A stretch of 64,000 nucleotides of DNA from Acidobacteriota bacterium (GTDB lineage Bacteria > Acidobacteriota > Terriglobia > Terriglobales > Acidobacteriaceae), in assembly GCA_021781795.1 (NCBI GenBank), contig JAJXWA010000007.1, positions 21,113 through 85,112 on the forward strand, read 5' to 3'. Every line of letters begins with the position of its first letter. Positions within the stretch are counted from its first letter, which is position 1. Below the pieces are notes generated by a model. That model saw only the letters and a list, made by a program, of their open reading frames with translations, did not search any database and was not told the origin of the DNA. Positions 2,805 to 56,490 of this stretch are shown one piece after another. The position numbers and the translations under genes are program-made.

Positions 2805-2908
2805 GGTGCCGGGTCCTACGCGACGTAATCCCGCCAACCCCGCCAGGTCCGGAAGGAAGCAACGGTAACGGGCTAGTACGGGCGCAGTAGGCAACCCGGT
2901 ACTTTTTT
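2805..2908 (+). ncRNA. ffs: Signal recognition particle small RNA (4.5S-type)
   Basis: Conserved apical core GCCAGGTCCGGAAGGAAGCAACGG; ends GGTGCCGGGT / ACCCGGTACT pair; followed by a T tract. Confidence 0.9.
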
Positions 2909-3038: not shown

Positions 3039-4055
3039 TTGAGCCTCACCGTGCGTCCTGTGGTGGGCCGGCGCGCAAAGATTACCGCGCTCGGAACCTA
3101 TGTTCCTCCCCAAGTTCTTACCAATCAAGATCTCGAAAAGATGGTGGAGACCAGCGACCAGTGGATCATGGATCGCACGGGCATTCGTGAGCGGCACGTG
3201 CTGGCGAAGGGACTGGGCACGAGCGATATGTGCGTGGAGGCGGCGAAGAAGTGTCTCGCAGCCCGCGGCATCGCGCCCAGCGAGGTTGAGGCCATCATCG
3301 TCGGGACCGTTACGCCGGACATGATGTTCCCCTCGACGGCGTGCCTGGTGCAGGACAAGATCGGAGCGAAGGGCGCCTGGGGCTTCGATGTTTCGGCTGG
3401 CTGCTCAGGCTTTGTGTTTGCGCTGCAGGCTGGTGTCAAGCTGGTGGAGAGCGGTGCGCACAGCAAGGTGCTGGTGTGCGGCGCAGATGCGAACACGCGC
3501 ATGACGGATTACACCGACCGCACCACCTGCGTTCTTTTCGGCGACGGCGGCGGCGCGGTGCTGATTGAGCCGGCAGCCGAGGGTGAGATTGGCTTCATCG
3601 ACTTTGTGCATGAGATTGACGGCTCGGGCGGGGCAGCGCTGAATCTGAAGGGCGGCGGCAGCCTGAATCCGACGAGTCACGAGACCATCGACAAGAAGAT
3701 GCACTACATCTATCAGGATGGTCCAGCGGTGTTCAAGTTTGCTGTGCGCAAGATGGCAGAGACGACGGTGAAGGTGCTGGAGCGCAATGGTGTGACTGGC
3801 ACGGACCTCGGCTGCTTCATCCCGCACCAGGCCAACAAGCGCATCATCATGGCGACGGCGGAGCGGCTCAACATGCCGGAAGACCGGGTCATCATCAATA
3901 TTGAGAAGTACGGCAACACGTCGTCCGGCACGATTCCGCTGGCCATGCAGACGGCACTCGACGAGGGCAAACTCAAAAAGGGCGATCTGGTGCTGCTAGG
4001 CGCGATGGGCGCGGGTTTTACGGTGGGCGCGGCGCTGCTTCGCTGGGAGATTTGA
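3039..4055 (+). CDS. fabH: Beta-ketoacyl-ACP synthase III
   Basis: [38 protein letters not shown]...[13 protein letters not shown]...PHQANKRII...[19 protein letters not shown] start. Confidence 0.96.
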
Positions 4056-5164: not shown

Positions 5165-6341
5165 ATGCCTCATCCGGCGTCCAGAAGCGCCGGCGTACCG
5201 ACAGAAGGGGACCAGCTTGCCTGCCTGGCTCTGGCATTGACGCAGGGACTGGGCCCGCGAAGAATCTACGAGGCGCTGCGCGGACTCGATGCAGCCAGCC
5301 AAGTCTTTGCGCTGTCGCTCGCTGACGGAGTTGGAGGCGCTGCGGCTGCCGGCGCAGGCCGCACAGTTCATTTTCGAGGGGAAAGCTCGCCAGATGGCGG
5401 AAGAGGAGTGGGCGCGCGTGCAGGAGCAGGGCGCGGGCCTCGTGACTCTAGCCAGCTCTGCGTATCCTGAGCGTCTCAAGGAGATTTACGATCCGCCGCC
5501 GGTGCTGTGGGTGCGCGGCAAGGCGAGCCTGCTGACGCGGCCGCTGCTGGCCGTGGTGGGCACGCGCCACCCATCGCCGTATGGCAGCGCCGTGGCGGAG
5601 ATGCTGTCGCGGGATCTGGCCGCGAGGCGATTGCTGATTGTGAGCGGCATGGCGCGGGGCATCGACACTTGCGCGCATAAGGGGGCGCAGGCCGCGCGCA
5701 CGCCCACGGTGGCCGTGTGGGGAACCGGCATTGACGTGATCTATCCCAAGGAGAACAAGAAGCTGGCGGAGGAGATTCTGGCGACAGGGGGAGCGATTGT
5801 GAGCGAGGTGCCGATGGGCACGTTTCCAGCGCCGCAGAACTTCCCGCGCCACAACCGGATTATCAGTGGACTGAGCATTGCCGTTCTGGTAGTGGAGGCG
5901 AGCGAGAACTCAGGAACGCGTGTGACGGCTCGCTGCGCCTCCGAGCAGAATCGCGATGTGTATGCCGTGCCAGGAAACGTGACGAGCAAAGGCTCCTGGA
6001 CGTCGAACACGCTGATTAAGCAGGGCGCAAAGCTGGTCGCCTCATGGGAGGATGTGTGGGAGGATCTTCCGTCGGAGGTGCGCAACGAACTGGAGGCTGA
6101 AGCCGGCACTGAATCCAAACCGGAGGCTCAGGCATCCTTGTTACCTGACCCGGCTTTGCGGCCGGAAGAGGCGATGGTGCTCGAGGTTCTGGGCACCGAC
6201 GAGGCTCTGCAACTGGATGAGCTTCTGGAAGCTCTGGAGACGCAATTGACCTCCTCCGAGGTGTTCACGGCCCTGTTCGAGCTGGAGATGAGCGGCCGGG
6301 TCCGCTGCCCTCCGGGGAAGAACTACGTGCGGACGCTTTGA
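5165..6341 (+). pseudogene. dprA: DNA-processing protein DprA, interrupted by a +1-type frameshift near 5315-5322
   Basis: N-terminus in frame 2 (GDQLACLALALTQGLGPRRIYEALRGLDAASQVFALSL), remainder in frame 0 (SLTELEALRLPAQAAQFIF...AVVGTRHPSPYGSAVAEML...SGMARGIDTCAHKGAQ...YAVPGNVTSKGSWTSNTLIKQGA); C-terminal winged helix present. Confidence 0.85.
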
Positions 6342-40689: not shown

Positions 40690-41931
40690 TTATTGTTCCG
40701 CATAGAACATGGTGCTTGTGCGCACGGTGACACTCGGCTTGTTGACTGTGATCGTCAGTGCATGGAACTCATCTGGTTTGGCTGCCGGTGCGACGTCAAA
40801 TGTCAGCACGTAATAGGACGTGGCGTCAGCAGCGCACTGAGCGATGCCAGTTTCAAGGTCTTTGCTGCTGGTCAGCAACTGCCCGCCGCTTTGGTGGGCA
40901 AGTGCCTCGAGGCTCAGACTCCCAGAGGTTACATCGGTCTCGCCCGGGACGCCGTTGATGAAGGCTTGGTCGTGTGTGTTGAGTTCAGCCGTCTTTCGGA
41001 GGAGACTCGACGGTGAGACCATGTCGAGCGTGACTTGACCCTCCCTGAGGGCATTGGACACTCGCACAAGATTGGCGAAAAAGTCTTGCTTGACCGCTTC
41101 GTCGTCAGGACGGAATTGCTTTTCATACAGCAAAGGCCATCCGGAACCGATCCAGATGAGGATCGCTCTGCCGGGGATATTGACCTGCTGGGCAGCGATG
41201 CGATCAAGGGCGACGACTGATCGTTTGAAACGCTCATTCATGCACGACAACATGTGAACAGAGCTGTTCGTACTCACCTGCCCAGGCATCCAGACGGCCA
41301 TGAATGGATCATTTGGATTCACCTCAGACGCGCAGCTGTATGCGTGAAGAGAATGAGTAAGAGATTTGAAATCTCCGAGAAGAGCATCCCGGTTCGTGGA
41401 ATTTTCGCTCATTGCTGCTCCTGAGTTCGTCAAAACAGCAATGGAGATGGGATAAGGGAGATGGCTCGGGCTCTGTCCGAGGAATCTCCCAATCCCCCTG
41501 CGGTATTCGGTCAGATCCCTCGATGAGCTATTGATTGCATCCAGCAGGATGATCACGTGTGCCTGTGTGACGGTCGCGTCCCGATTGGCCTTCCGGACTG
41601 AGACGAGCGGATGCGGCTGATGATCCAGCAGCAGGGTGAAATCTTTCTCCTGCAAGTGCGACACTGGCTCGCCTGACGCACCGTTGACCTGTACATTGAG
41701 GATGATGCGGTGCTCCATCTTGTAGCGCATCTCGCGCTCTGCGTGGGTTCTGGGGATGAGTTGCGGGGATGGTGACGATTCAGGCGGAGCGGTCTGGCTC
41801 GACGCGTTCCTGGGCGCAAGAAGGGCAACCCACGTGAGCGTGAGGCAGAGGAGAATTTCGCCCAGTGATTTCCCTCTCGGCATGCGTCCCGCCCGGGCAC
41901 GGATTCTCCGGCCAAGGTGCCAGTACTCCAT
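40690..41931 (-). CDS. VWA-related (VWFA-like) secreted protein
   Basis: VNGASGEPVSHLQEKDFTLLLDHQPHPLVSVRKANRDATVTQAHVIILLDAINSSSRDLTEYRRGIGRFL...YYVLTFDVAPAAKPDEFH. Confidence 0.8.
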   Translation of the reverse strand: MEYWHLGRRIRARAGRMPRGKSLGEILLCLTLTWVALLAPRNASSQTAPPESSPSPQLIPRTHAEREMRYKMEHRIILNVQVNGASGEPVSHLQEKDFTLLLDHQPHPLVSVRKANRDATVTQAHVIILLDAINSSSRDLTEYRRGIGRFLGQSPSHLPYPISIAVLTNSGAAMSENSTNRDALLGDFKSLTHSLHAYSCASEVNPNDPFMAVWMPGQVSTNSSVHMLSCMNERFKRSVVALDRIAAQQVNIPGRAILIWIGSGWPLLYEKQFRPDDEAVKQDFFANLVRVSNALREGQVTLDMVSPSSLLRKTAELNTHDQAFINGVPGETDVTSGSLSLEALAHQSGGQLLTSSKDLETGIAQCAADATSYYVLTFDVAPAAKPDEFHALTITVNKPSVTVRTSTMFYAEQ

Positions 41932-42061
41932 CGTAACCGGACGGGGCAGAGGCTTGCACTGTTTGATAGGGAATGGCAGCCTGGCGGAGATGCACGTTGT
42001 GTTGGAGGGGATGCGTTGGTCGCCGATGGATACCCTACAGTAAGCTGTTATCCAAAGTGTG

Positions 42062-42997
42062 ATGCGGGAAAGGTTCGAGTACGGGCTGGTGTGGCTGGTG
42101 GCGCGCGCTCTGGGGCGCATGCCGCGGGAAGTGGCGCGCGGATTGGCAGGCGTACTGGCGTGGTGCGTGTATCGTTTCATGGGCCGGTTGCGGTATGTGG
42201 GCCTGCGCAACCTTGCGCTGGCCTACCCGGAGCAGAGCGACGCATGGCGCAAGACGATGCTGCGCGGCGTCTATCGGCATCTGGGATGGCAGTTGGTCGA
42301 GTTCTGCCGCATGGGGCGCTATACGCCAGAGAACACGCGCAATTGGATTCACACCGACGGCCTCGAGCATTATCTTGCAGCGCGCGACCGCGGCAAAGGT
42401 GTGCTGGTGCTGACAGGACATCTGGGAGCATGGGAGCTGTCGAGCTTTTATCACTCGCTCATGGGCTATCCCATGGGAATGGTGATTCGCAGGCTCGACA
42501 ACCGGCTGCTGGACAGGTTTGTGAATGGAATCCGGTGTCTGCACGGCAATCGCGTGCTGCACAAGGACGACTTCGCGCGTGGGCTGCTGAAGGCGATGCA
42601 CGCTGGCGAGTCGGTTGGTATCCTGATGGACACAAATATGACGCCGCCGCAGGGCGTCTTTGTGGACTTCTTTGGGCGCAAGGCCTGCACTGCCTCAGGA
42701 TTGGCGCGCGTCGCCCTGAAGACCGGCGCGGCGGTGTTGCCCGGTTTTCTGCTGTGGGAGCCGGACGAACGGCGCTATCTGCTGCGCTTTGGTGCGGAGC
42801 TGCACTTTGCACGCACCGGCGATCACGAGGCGGATGTGCTGGCGGCAACGCAGCAGTGCGCGGCGGTCACGGAGGCGTGGATCAGGCGCTATCCGGACCA
42901 GTGGCTGTGGATTCATCGGCGGTGGAAGACACGGCCGGCTGGCGAGCCGGCACTGTATGGACGGAGCAATGTGCATGAAGGTGCGGGAGCTAGTTGA
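42062..42997 (+). CDS. LpxL/HtrB-like lysophospholipid (lipid A) acyltransferase
   Basis: NLALAYPEQSDAWRKTMLRGVYRHLGWQLVEF...KGVLVLTGHLGAWEL...GILMDTNMTPPQGVFVDFFGRKACT...YPDQWLWIHRRWKTRP. Confidence 0.9.
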   Translation: MRERFEYGLVWLVARALGRMPREVARGLAGVLAWCVYRFMGRLRYVGLRNLALAYPEQSDAWRKTMLRGVYRHLGWQLVEFCRMGRYTPENTRNWIHTDGLEHYLAARDRGKGVLVLTGHLGAWELSSFYHSLMGYPMGMVIRRLDNRLLDRFVNGIRCLHGNRVLHKDDFARGLLKAMHAGESVGILMDTNMTPPQGVFVDFFGRKACTASGLARVALKTGAAVLPGFLLWEPDERRYLLRFGAELHFARTGDHEADVLAATQQCAAVTEAWIRRYPDQWLWIHRRWKTRPAGEPALYGRSNVHEGAGAS

Positions 42998-45666: not shown

Positions 45667-45888
45667 TTATTTGTCCTGCGGAAATGGTTCGGTGCGGAAG
45701 GAACCGTCGCGCTGCCGGATGAGCGTCTCGACTTTGCCCTCGGCTTCGTCGAGCTCTTTCTTGCAGGCGGCTGACAAAGCAACGCCCTCCTCGAAGAGCT
45801 TGACGGACTCCTCGAGACTCAGCTCGCCCTTCTCCATCTGTTCCACGATGGATTCGAGCTTCTTCAACGACTCTTCAAACGATGGCAT
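45667..45888 (-). CDS. xseB: Exodeoxyribonuclease VII small subunit
   Basis: MPSFEESLKKLESIVEQMEKGELSLEESVKLFEEGVAL. Confidence 0.9.
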   Translation of the reverse strand: MPSFEESLKKLESIVEQMEKGELSLEESVKLFEEGVALSAACKKELDEAEGKVETLIRQRDGSFRTEPFPQDK

Positions 45889-45893
45889 CGGTC

Positions 45894-47768
45894 TCACTCC
45901 TTGGTGCCGGGTGCGGGCGGCAGCATTCCGGCGATGACCTCTGCCGCGACCATGGCTTGACCGAAGGGCGCGCTGATCTGCACTCCCTGCACATAAGGCC
46001 GCACGGCAGCCAGCATCTCCTGGGCAATCCGGATGCCTTCCTGCTGGGCTGCTTCAGGCGTGTTGGCCAATGCCATGCGCAGCATAATCTCTTCCGGCAT
46101 GGAGACACGCAGGTCGTTCTTCATGAACTCTGCATTGCGCAGGCTCGTGAGCGGCCATATTCCGGCAATCACAGGAATGCGATGCGGCTCGATCCGCTTG
46201 AGGAATTCTTCGAGAAGGCGCAGATCGAACACCGGTTGCGTGATGGCGTACTCCGCGCCGGCCTCAACCTTGAATGCGAAGCGGCGCAACTCGTGCTCAA
46301 TGTCGGGCGCCCCTGGGTTGGCAGCAACTCCGATGGTGAAGTTGGTGGAGGCGCCGATGGCGTTCGCGCCGATGTCGAGGCCGCGATTCAGGCTGCGCAC
46401 AAGATTGACGAGGCCGATCGAATCCACGTCGAATACGGCGGTCGCATCCGGATAGTTGCCAAGCTTGGGCGGATCGCCAGTAAGGCAGAGGATATTGCGC
46501 AAGCCGATGGAGGACGCGCCGAGGAGATCCGACTGGATGGACAGGACATTGCGATCGCGGCAGGTGTAGTGAAGCACGGTTTCGATGCCTGTATGCTGCT
46601 GAATCTGGATGCAGAGGCTTTGCGCGCTCATGCGTGCAGAAGCGCGGGGAGAGTCGGGCACATTGATGGCGTGGACGCCCAGCTGCGCGAGCATCTGCGC
46701 GGCTTCAATCTCGCGGTGGCAATCGATACCCTTCGGTGGCACAATCTCCACCAACGTCACGAACTGTCCCTGATCGATGAGCAAGCCCAGCCGGGAACGA
46801 TGCCCGAGCGGTGCGGGCGGCGTCTCCCGCGTTGGTTCGGCTGTGGCGCTGCCTTCCACGAAATGGGCCTGACCGTCGAGCGCGCGCATGGCCGAGCGCA
46901 TGGCGCGGATATGGTTCGGCGTTGTGCCGCAACATCCGCCCACTACCTGAGCGCCGCAGGCAATCGCCTTGCGGGCGAAGCTGGCCATGTACTCCGGCGA
47001 GCAGAGGTAGATATTGCGTCCTTCAACGGCCCGAGGCAGACCCGCATTGGGCATGGCGACGATAGGCAACGAAGTCGCTGCACGCATGGCCTCGACGGCG
47101 GTGAGCACTGCGGAGGGCCCTGTGGAGCAGTTGACTCCGACAGCGTTCGCGCCCCACTCCGTGAGGAGCGTCGCCGCGTGCTGCGGAGACGACCCGTCAA
47201 GACAATTGCTTTCGTCATCGACGGTGACCATGACCACAATGGGCAGATGCGGTGCGGCTTCCTGAGCGGCCCGCAGCGCCTCGTGGGCTTCATTGAGCGC
47301 GGGCATGGTTTCAATGATCAGCAGGTCTGCCCCCGCGTCGGCCAGAGCGCGAATCTGCTCCGCGAATGCTGCACGCGCCTCTTCCAGGCTGGTCTTGCCG
47401 AGGGGCTCCAGCCGCACGCCGAGCGGCCCAACAGAGCCCGCCACCCATGCTTCACAGGGCTGCCGCTCCTGCAGATGCGCGATTGCCTCGCGCGCGATGC
47501 GAACGCCGGCCGCGTTAATCTCAGCCACCCTGCCCGCAAGCCCGTGACGCGCAAGACGGAACCGGTTAGCGCCGAAGGTATTCGACTCCAGGATCTGCGC
47601 GCCGGCCTGCAGGTACTCTTCATGGACGGCCATGATCAGCGCCGGATCGGAGAGGTTGAGCTCGTCGTAGCAGCGGTGGATAAAGATGCCGCGGGAATAG
47701 AGAACTGTGCCCATGGCGCCATCGGCGAGCAGCGGCTGGCCGGCGAGGATGTCACTCAATTGCGGCAT
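45894..47768 (-). CDS. Bifunctional homocysteine S-methyltransferase / methylenetetrahydrofolate reductase
   Basis: LADGAMGTVLYSRG...VGVNCSTGPSAVL...VGGCCGTTPNHIRAM; C-terminal NILCLTGDPPKLGNYPDATAVFDVDSIGLVNLV. Confidence 0.94.
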   Translation of the reverse strand: MPQLSDILAGQPLLADGAMGTVLYSRGIFIHRCYDELNLSDPALIMAVHEEYLQAGAQILESNTFGANRFRLARHGLAGRVAEINAAGVRIAREAIAHLQERQPCEAWVAGSVGPLGVRLEPLGKTSLEEARAAFAEQIRALADAGADLLIIETMPALNEAHEALRAAQEAAPHLPIVVMVTVDDESNCLDGSSPQHAATLLTEWGANAVGVNCSTGPSAVLTAVEAMRAATSLPIVAMPNAGLPRAVEGRNIYLCSPEYMASFARKAIACGAQVVGGCCGTTPNHIRAMRSAMRALDGQAHFVEGSATAEPTRETPPAPLGHRSRLGLLIDQGQFVTLVEIVPPKGIDCHREIEAAQMLAQLGVHAINVPDSPRASARMSAQSLCIQIQQHTGIETVLHYTCRDRNVLSIQSDLLGASSIGLRNILCLTGDPPKLGNYPDATAVFDVDSIGLVNLVRSLNRGLDIGANAIGASTNFTIGVAANPGAPDIEHELRRFAFKVEAGAEYAITQPVFDLRLLEEFLKRIEPHRIPVIAGIWPLTSLRNAEFMKNDLRVSMPEEIMLRMALANTPEAAQQEGIRIAQEMLAAVRPYVQGVQISAPFGQAMVAAEVIAGMLPPAPGTKE

Positions 47769-48096
47769 TCTGAACCCATGCTATCGCATCGGGATGCCCG
47801 TCGATGGGCGGGAGTTGACAGAAAACTGGCACCCACACGGACCGCCGCGAAGAACGGCTCTGAGCCTGCTGCGCGAGTTTCGCAAGCATCTTCCGGCGTG
47901 CTCCCAAGGCATCGAATCGGTTCCCCTGCGGGCGGCTTTGCGCAGGGCTGCTTTGTTATACTTCGAGAGTCTAAGGGAGTGCAGGAAGCAGCCGCGACCC
48001 GAGCAAAGAATTGCTTTGGAATGCGTCTCGGGCTCCAAGCAAAGTCTTCATGAGAAGGCGGCGGACGCACCGCTGGCTCTGTCGAGGTAAGGGATC

Positions 48097-53896: not shown

Positions 53897-54039
53897 TCGC
53901 AGCCTTCCGAACGGCCCGCAAACGCCGGCTGAGACCGCCTGACCCGTAACGCCTTCCCAAGGAATAACTTCCAAATTCTGCGGTTCTTTCAAATCCCCTT
54001 AACATAATCAGCCGAAAATAGAGGAGTAGTAAATCCGCC

Positions 54040-55053
54040 ATGGAGCCTTCCGTGAAAAAGACCCTTCTTGCAATTGGCTTGTTCGCTTTGGCCTTGAGTG
54101 CTGCTCAGGCTCAGAAGCTGACTGGAGCAGGCGCCACCTTTCCTTATCCCATCTACTCCAAGTGGTTCACCGAATACAGCAATGCCCACTCCGGCGTTCA
54201 GGTCAACTACGCTTCGATCGGATCCGGCGGCGGCATCGCCCAGGTCACGAAAGGTCTGGTTGATTTTGGCGCATCGGACATGCCGATGACCGACGACATG
54301 CTGGCCTCTTCTAAAGTGAAGCTGATTCATATTCCGACCGTGCTTGGCGCGGTCGTGCCGGTCTTCAATGTGCCGGGCGTGAGCGACCTCCGGTTCAGTC
54401 CCGACGTCCTGGCCGATATCTACCTCGGCAAGATCAGTAACTGGAACGATGCCCGCATCGCAAAGGACAACGCCGGTGCTCACCTGCCCGACCAGAAAAT
54501 CATCGTGGTGCATCGCTCGGATGGCTCCGGCACGAGCTTCATCTGGACCGACTATCTCAGCAAGATAAGCAGCGACTGGGCGAATGGGCCCGGCAAAGGC
54601 ACCGCGCCGAGCTGGCCTGTGGGCGTCGGCGGCAAAGGCAATGAAGGCGTCGCCGGTCTGGTGCGTCAGTTGCCCGGAGCCATCGGCTACGTCGAGCTGA
54701 TATATGCCCTGCAGAACAACATCAGCTTCGGCAGCATTCGAAATGCCGCCGGAAACTGGGTCAAGGGTTCCATCGCCGGCGTCACTGAGGCAGCGGCCAG
54801 CATCAAGACGATGCCTGCCGACTATCGTGTCTCCATCACCAATGCGCCGGGCGCGACCGCCTATCCTGTCTCCAGCTTCACCTATCTTCTGATCCCGGTG
54901 GCTTCCACCAACGCAGCGAATCGAGCGGTGCTGAAGGACATGCTGAGCTGGATTCTGAAGTCGGGTGAATCCGAGGTCTCGGCGCTGTCGTACGCGCCGC
55001 TTCCGCAGAGCCTCATCGACAAGGAACTCAAGACGGTGTACTCGCTCAAGTAG
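54040..55053 (+). CDS. pstS: Phosphate ABC transporter substrate-binding protein
   Basis: KLTGAGATFPYPIYSKWFTEYSNAHSGVQVNYASIGSGGGIAQVTKGLVDFGASDMPM...VVHRSDGSGTSFIWTDYLSK. Confidence 0.95.
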   Translation: MEPSVKKTLLAIGLFALALSAAQAQKLTGAGATFPYPIYSKWFTEYSNAHSGVQVNYASIGSGGGIAQVTKGLVDFGASDMPMTDDMLASSKVKLIHIPTVLGAVVPVFNVPGVSDLRFSPDVLADIYLGKISNWNDARIAKDNAGAHLPDQKIIVVHRSDGSGTSFIWTDYLSKISSDWANGPGKGTAPSWPVGVGGKGNEGVAGLVRQLPGAIGYVELIYALQNNISFGSIRNAAGNWVKGSIAGVTEAAASIKTMPADYRVSITNAPGATAYPVSSFTYLLIPVASTNAANRAVLKDMLSWILKSGESEVSALSYAPLPQSLIDKELKTVYSLK

Positions 55054-55078
55054 CCTAGTGAAAACCGCATTGCAAGGG

Positions 55079-55108
55079 GCCTGGTAGCCACGCTGCCGGG
55101 CTCTTTTG
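55079..55108 (+). terminator. Rho-independent terminator immediately after pstS
   Basis: GCCTGGTAGC-CAC-GCTGCCGGGC followed by TCTTTTG. Confidence 0.75.
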
Positions 55109-55236
55109 TTTATGTTCGGTCGGAATCTCGCTGCCCGTGGAACCGCATCTGCGTCTTTTCCGTAAGAGCTAGTGTCCACGCAGGCCGTGGGGAATGCGGA
55201 CGAAGCACGTCGAAAGCAGTTTCGTGGCGTATCTTT

Positions 55237-56490
55237 ATGCAGCGTTTTGGTGACACAATCGGGCAGGTGTTTCGAGCCATAGCGGCCAACAAGCTGCGCA
55301 GCTTCCTCACCATGTTTGGCATTGCGTGGGGAGTTGGCTCGCTGCTGGTGTTGGTGGGGCTGGGTGAAGGATTCCGCTCCGGCCAGCGGCGCAACCTCTC
55401 GAAGCTGGGCAACGACCTGGTGATGATGTGGAACGGAACCATCCCTGCGGTGGCAGACCAGCACACCGGCATGCGTCCTTATGAGCTGACCATGGGAGAT
55501 GCTGCGGCCTTGAGCCGCTTGCCCGAGTTGCGCGCTGTCACCGTTGAATTGGCCCGCAGCGACCTGTACGAGGTGAGCCAGTGGGCCAACACCTCCAGTC
55601 ACGTGATGGGCGTGCTGCCAAACTACACCGTTGTGCGGTTTATTCCCATGGCGACGGGGCGGTTCATCGATCAGAGAGATGTGGACAATCAGCGCAGAGT
55701 CGCAGTCCTCGGCTCCAAGGCAGCCACGCTCCTGTTCAATGGCCGTCCGATGCTGGGTGAAGTTATCACCATCAACGGGACCGGCTTCACCGTTGTCGGG
55801 TCGGTTGAAAAAATCAGCCGCGGAGACAACGACTTCGACGACCAGAAAGTCTACGTGCCCGTGACCACCATGCAGGAGCTGTTCCCGCTGAAGGGCGACA
55901 ACATCCCGCTCGATGCGCTCACGTCGATCCAGTATCAGCCTGCGGTCCGTGGAGAATCTGCCGCCGCGGTCGCCGCGGTTCACAAGGTCATCGCGATGAG
56001 GCACGGATTCGATCCCTCTCTCAAAGATGCATTTCAGGAGTGGAACACGATAGAGGAGATGAAGATGATCGGTGCCATCTTCACCGCCATGGACATCTTT
56101 CTCGGTGGAGTGGGGATTGTGACGCTGGGACTGGGCGCCGTGGGGATTATCAACATCATGCTCGTTTCTGTGACCGAGAGAACGCATGAAATTGGCCTGC
56201 TGAAGGCACTTGGCGCAACCAAGAGCACAATCCTCTCTCAGTTCTTCTGGGAAGGTCTGCTGCTCACGGGCATCAGCGGGGTGATCGGAATCGCGCTCTC
56301 GGCGGGATTCATGGCGCTGCTGCAGTCGGCGCTGACCGACAAGATGCCGGGATGGGACCCGCCCCGGCTGGTGCCATGGTCTGCGGCGCTGGCCCTTGGA
56401 TCACTGGTGCTGAGCGGCGTTGTCGCCGGCTTGTATCCCGCCGGCAAGGCGGCGCAAATGGACCCGATTGAGGCTCTGCGAAGAGAGTAG
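55237..56490 (+). CDS. MacB/FtsX-type ABC transporter permease
   Basis: AIAANKLRSFLTMFGIAWGVGSLLVLVGLGEGF...GAVGIINIMLVSVTERTHEIGLLKALGATKSTI...LYPAGKAAQMDPIEALRRE. Confidence 0.93.
   Translation: MQRFGDTIGQVFRAIAANKLRSFLTMFGIAWGVGSLLVLVGLGEGFRSGQRRNLSKLGNDLVMMWNGTIPAVADQHTGMRPYELTMGDAAALSRLPELRAVTVELARSDLYEVSQWANTSSHVMGVLPNYTVVRFIPMATGRFIDQRDVDNQRRVAVLGSKAATLLFNGRPMLGEVITINGTGFTVVGSVEKISRGDNDFDDQKVYVPVTTMQELFPLKGDNIPLDALTSIQYQPAVRGESAAAVAAVHKVIAMRHGFDPSLKDAFQEWNTIEEMKMIGAIFTAMDIFLGGVGIVTLGLGAVGIINIMLVSVTERTHEIGLLKALGATKSTILSQFFWEGLLLTGISGVIGIALSAGFMALLQSALTDKMPGWDPPRLVPWSAALALGSLVLSGVVAGLYPAGKAAQMDPIEALRRE

Follow-up and report, generated by a model that had tools for sequence, protein, structure and literature searches.

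A private four-base duplication splits dprA in an Acidobacteriaceae genome bin from which comEC is missing

Transformation genes in described systems

Frameshifts in comM, pilD, and comD have been described in strains of Haemophilus influenzae (PMC2689351), and A. baumannii (Acinetobacter) often carries an inactivated comM (PMC11472951). In Piscirickettsia salmonis, comEC is broken in all genomes and dprA is intact (PMC12955456). The DprA protein of Helicobacter pylori consists of Rossmann and DML1-like domains only (PMC4489622), and a Riemerella DprA construct that lacked the SAM domain restored transformation weakly (PMC6533540). Changes in the number of 4-bp units shift the reading frame of the Haemophilus genes licA and mod, which carry ∼5 to >50 units, and Haemophilus tetranucleotide tracts of 5 to 11 units show rare if any phase variation (PMC2992063). 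No direct study of DprA or transformation in Acidobacteria was found in the literature.

The locus described here, a dprA gene split by a short duplication, resembles the competence pseudogenes of H. influenzae in that a small frameshift lies in a transformation gene of one lineage while relatives are intact. It differs in the gene affected (dprA), in its host, an uncultured acidobacterium, and in the additional absence of comEC. As in P. salmonis, where the loss is irreversible, the ComEC channel appears to have been lost in the lineage; however, comEC of P. salmonis was broken by mobile elements and dprA was conserved, whereas in the present case a deletion has removed comEC and dprA is broken too. 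The case is also comparable to comM of A. baumannii, a transformation gene lost within a transformable group, although the lesion there is the insertion of a mobile element and here a short duplication in dprA.

The split dprA gene and its relatives

The window, the 64,000-nucleotide stretch analyzed here, comes from contig C47 of an Acidobacteriaceae metagenome-assembled genome (MAG; bin G000) of 3,398,867 bases in 89 contigs, estimated to be 87.7% complete and 1.3% contaminated. The nearest named relatives of the bin are Acidobacteriaceae MAGs and Terracidiphilus, and in these comparisons the species is represented by this bin alone. Of its 3.4 Mb, ∼1.1 Mb was inspected directly. Elsewhere in the window, an ordinary bacterial small SRP RNA (RF00169) lies between rimO and fabH (2807 to 2904, plus strand). 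Three long open frames of 506, 723, and 732 codons have no Pfam match (40690 to 42210, minus strand; 45882 to 48053, plus strand; and 53989 to 56187, minus strand); some of these overlap long frames on the opposite strand, so that their coding strand is uncertain.

Positions 5315 to 5322 of the window (plus strand) read TCGCTCGC, a tandem TCGC TCGC embedded in GCGCTGTCGCTCGCTGACGGAG. Upstream of it, frame 2 opens at an ATG at 5165 and encodes MPHPASRSAGVPTEGDQLACLALALTQGLGPRRIYEALRGLDAASQVFALS, the SAM-like N-terminal part that aligns with the DprA proteins of relatives up to ∼5314, beyond which translation proceeds in the wrong frame until it meets a stop codon at 5468 to 5470, giving a dead-end peptide of 101 amino acids (5165 to 5470, plus strand). 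Frame 0 remains open between 5241 and 6341 and, from 5322 onwards on the plus strand, carries the end of the SAM-like part followed by the Rossmann (PF02481; E value, 3.4e−75) and winged-helix (PF17782; E value, 1.7e−8) parts with no internal stops. The PF02481 score of 252.3 bits against a cutoff of 29.6 places the product among DprA proteins, although the SAM, Rossmann, and winged-helix parts do not share a single intact frame, which is broken at 5315 to 5322. Translation and Pfam matches thus bear out the preliminary description of this DNA, which had assigned the SAM-like part to frame 2 and the remaining parts to frame 0. No second dprA was found in the 3.4-Mb bin; the gene is single copy, and the idea of an intact copy elsewhere in the bin was rejected.

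The junction was aligned at the DNA level between the bin and 29 relatives from the same genus. Exactly four extra bases, which are the source of the frameshift, were found in G000 only, and dprA formed one continuous frame in all 29 relatives. The frameshift is therefore derived and private to G000 among the aligned relatives and, as is expected of a pseudogene, the disruption is absent from the orthologues of close relatives (29/29). A comparison with sister strains had been proposed in the preliminary description; carried out at the level of the genus, it identified no relative sharing the split, and the alignment also upheld the proposed exact 4-bp tandem duplication. An exact tandem copy is the product expected of slippage or a short duplication, in keeping with the slipped-strand event suggested there. 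A screen of two collections with ∼100 dprA loci between them yielded one other frameshift, in the Edaphobacter MAG RYN_3 (L105), where two bases are missing at ∼3065 to 3070 of that locus, ∼25 residues downstream of the G000 site; it represents an independent event.

Pairwise dN/dS values for the 3′ part of dprA ranged from 0.04 to 0.14, the same as between intact relatives, so that any decay would be recent, and the break itself is probably recent. Two residues of the G000 protein have changed at positions that are invariant in 91 other DprA sequences: an Arg to His change within the FPxRNR motif (5850 to 5852, plus strand), where the Arg is also retained in solved homologues, and a Pro to Ser change (6003 to 6005, plus strand). 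By this count G000 takes joint rank 2 of 92 sequences. The two changes hint at relaxed constraint, though not strongly.

Absence of comEC and comM, and dprA across the family

The preliminary description had considered dprA without its wider context, namely that comEC is gone from its locus, that comM was not found, and that dprA is repeatedly broken in the family. A profile search for the ComEC Competence domain (PF03772) found no match in bin G000; the domain is present in 362 of 398 family genomes and in 48 of 49 other genomes of the same genus. When the ComEC protein of the closest relative, G026, was used as a query against the bin, nothing was recovered beyond an overlap artefact and a metallo-beta-lactamase relative. 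Weak comEC matches on C49 and C44 were rejected because the former lies in the overlap with a methyltransferase gene and the latter covers the metallo-beta-lactamase part only.

In relatives, the comEC locus consists of nadC, birA, coaX, a tRNA/rRNA-type methyltransferase gene, and then comEC. On contig C49 of the bin, the end of nadC is followed by birA, coaX, and the methyltransferase gene and then, after 31 bp, by the remnant of an outer-membrane-protein gene and by obgE; neither comEC nor the 3′ part of the outer-membrane-protein gene is present in the interval that separates the methyltransferase gene from obgE (L259, 3798 to 5860). Compared with G026 the locus is ∼6 kb shorter, comEC being included in the loss. 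comEC is consequently missing from an otherwise assembled locus, with C49 and C47 presumed to originate from the same genome. The comEC-less junction was not seen in other genomes among the matches listed in 80 same-genus genomes.

The first 612 bp of C49 (L259, 1 to 612) overlap the end of C87 (L260, 1 to 612) as a dovetail with 87.6% identity, and the contig order C87-C49 agrees with that in G026. Other contig-end overlaps in the bin measure 241 to 325 bp at 97 to 99% identity, and the C87/C49 pattern thus resembles neighboring contigs that end in strain-variable places. A divergence of 12% is nevertheless large, and C49 may derive from a second related strain; it is possible, judging from this overlap, that the bin mixes related strains or haplotypes at C49. 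The comM gene (Mg_chelatase_C, PF13335) was likewise not found by profile search in this 88% complete bin; it is present in 41 of 42 good same-genus genomes, and given the completeness of the bin its absence may be missing data. An illustration is G030 (84% complete), which is without comEC and comM yet has an intact dprA, showing that gene absence alone can reflect missing data.

The wider survey covered 398 family genomes, 256 of which were of good quality (≥90% complete and ≤5% contaminated). dprA is present in 373 of the 398 genomes and in 252 of the 256. The association with comEC was tallied by hand in the good-quality genomes, and dprA was counted as affected when absent or when its best match was weaker than 1e−100. 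By this measure dprA was absent, weak, or fragmented in 8 of 12 genomes without comEC (G117, G118, G170, G183, G230, G258, G324, and G330) versus 7 of 244 with it (G072, G132, G149, G192, G227, G308, and G329; Fisher P = 7e−9, a value that ignores shared ancestry). Some of the affected genomes are fragmented assemblies in which a weak dprA match can be a contig end; in the subset with ≤300 contigs, three of six comEC-less genomes were affected versus four affected genomes with comEC. Breaks in the middle of a contig were confirmed for dprA in G072 (L144), G118 (L145), G230 (L146), G329 (L143), G364 (L140), and G336 (L135), and one is likely in G287 (L141). These genomes belong to several other genera of the family, and G118 and G230 are also without comEC.

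Probable inactivation of dprA and alternative explanations

On balance, it seems likely from these comparisons that dprA was inactivated by one short slippage or duplication event, in which one TCGC was copied, in a lineage losing natural transformation. Copying of one unit would have broken the frame, leaving a cell that would produce the dead-end peptide and no full-length DprA. DprA takes imported DNA and loads RecA; with ComEC, the channel for import of single-stranded DNA, lost, it would have been left with little to do, and relaxed selection could then have allowed the frameshift to persist. Since comEC is wholly deleted and dprA is otherwise little decayed, comEC would have gone first and dprA later. 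A broken dprA in a bin from which comEC is missing most likely reflects ordinary decay of transformation rather than a genetic switch. Decay is supported by the private frameshift in a single dprA, the lack of other real frameshifts in the 83 genes compared, the comEC-less locus, the failure to find comM, the association across the family, the mid-contig breaks elsewhere, and the two changes at invariant DprA positions; the low identity of the C49/C87 overlap, the incompleteness of the bin, the intact dprA of G030, and dN/dS values like those of intact relatives count against it. The preliminary description had offered a knockout, a phase-variable switch, or an assembly error; the knockout is the best supported of these, on the strength of the derived private duplication and the comEC-less bin, and the switch is not sustained.

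The extra TCGC could instead be a consensus artefact, or dprA could be intact in most cells and the assembly record an error or a minority haplotype. The sequence is known from a MAG assembly alone, and strain-variable overlapping contig ends are present in the bin, but we consider this explanation unlikely. When ∼760 kb of the bin was checked for frameshifts against the proteins of relatives, the comparable part amounted to 113 kb and 83 genes, in which dprA carried the only real frameshift; the absence of frameshifts from the other 82 genes sets a 95% upper bound of ∼3.6% per gene, which indicates that errors are not frequent in the assembly. On C14 and C18, candidate frameshifts were rejected as antisense shadow frames of real genes, as was one at C47:22252, which lies antisense to rimO. 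Short-read consensus errors do not typically take the form of an exact 4-bp tandem copy, and the absence of comEC from the same bin also argues against an artefact.

The best functional rival to inactivation is that translation initiates internally (at GTG 5418, ATG 5394, or ATG 5289) and still yields a SAM-less DprA with some remaining role in DNA binding. The Rossmann and winged-helix frame is free of stops with dN/dS like that of relatives, and a GAGGAG lies 9 bases before the GTG at 5418 (5403 to 5420, plus strand), at the first residue of the Rossmann match, which is residue 44 of the frame that starts at 5289. A protein from the downstream frame would share its layout of Rossmann and C-terminal domains with the naturally SAM-less DprA of H. 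pylori (PMC4489622), and weak transformation by the SAM-less construct in Riemerella (PMC6533540) is consistent with residual function. However, the H. pylori protein is native with its own start, whereas a short DprA in G000 would arise incidentally from a disrupted gene. Conserved codons (EEEW) account for the GAGGAG, the sites at 5289 and 5394 are weak, a conserved Arg is replaced, and with comEC missing there would be no imported DNA to process, such that a channel-less cell would have little transformation use for the protein. The ATG at 5289 to 5291 (plus strand), put forward in the preliminary description as a possible start for a truncated DprA, does exist, but its ribosome-binding context is poor, the sole candidate being a GAGG 15 nucleotides upstream. 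We therefore regard a functional SAM-less DprA as improbable.

A reversible switch of transformation through TCGC copy number is very improbable. The reading frame does depend on that number, as in licA and mod, but G000 has two units and its relatives have no repeat, compared with the 5- to 11-unit tetranucleotide tracts for which switching is rare if any (PMC2992063). Many tandem units that vary among relatives, the mark of a phase-variable locus, are not seen here: the octamer TCGCTCGC is about as frequent in the window as chance predicts (9 occurrences versus 9.3 expected), none of the 29 relatives has the repeat at this site, and loss of comEC would render switching pointless. A programmed ribosomal frameshift has practically no chance of being correct, since a +1 shift near the junction would connect the two frames but the junction has neither a stop nor a known slippery codon, and relatives need no shift.

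Taken alone, the break in dprA is an ordinary pseudogene, an event of a known kind. With comEC also missing, decay of dprA would illustrate on a small scale how an uncultured acidobacterial lineage dismantles transformation, and it is the comEC context that adds to its value. That dprA decay tends to accompany comEC loss across the family suggests that DprA is kept mainly for transformation in Acidobacteriaceae. More tentatively, transformation may have been lost repeatedly within the family, comEC and dprA decaying together, and G000 may represent a stage at which comEC has been deleted and dprA has only just been broken. If this is true, the family could form a natural series from which to read the order in which transformation genes are lost.
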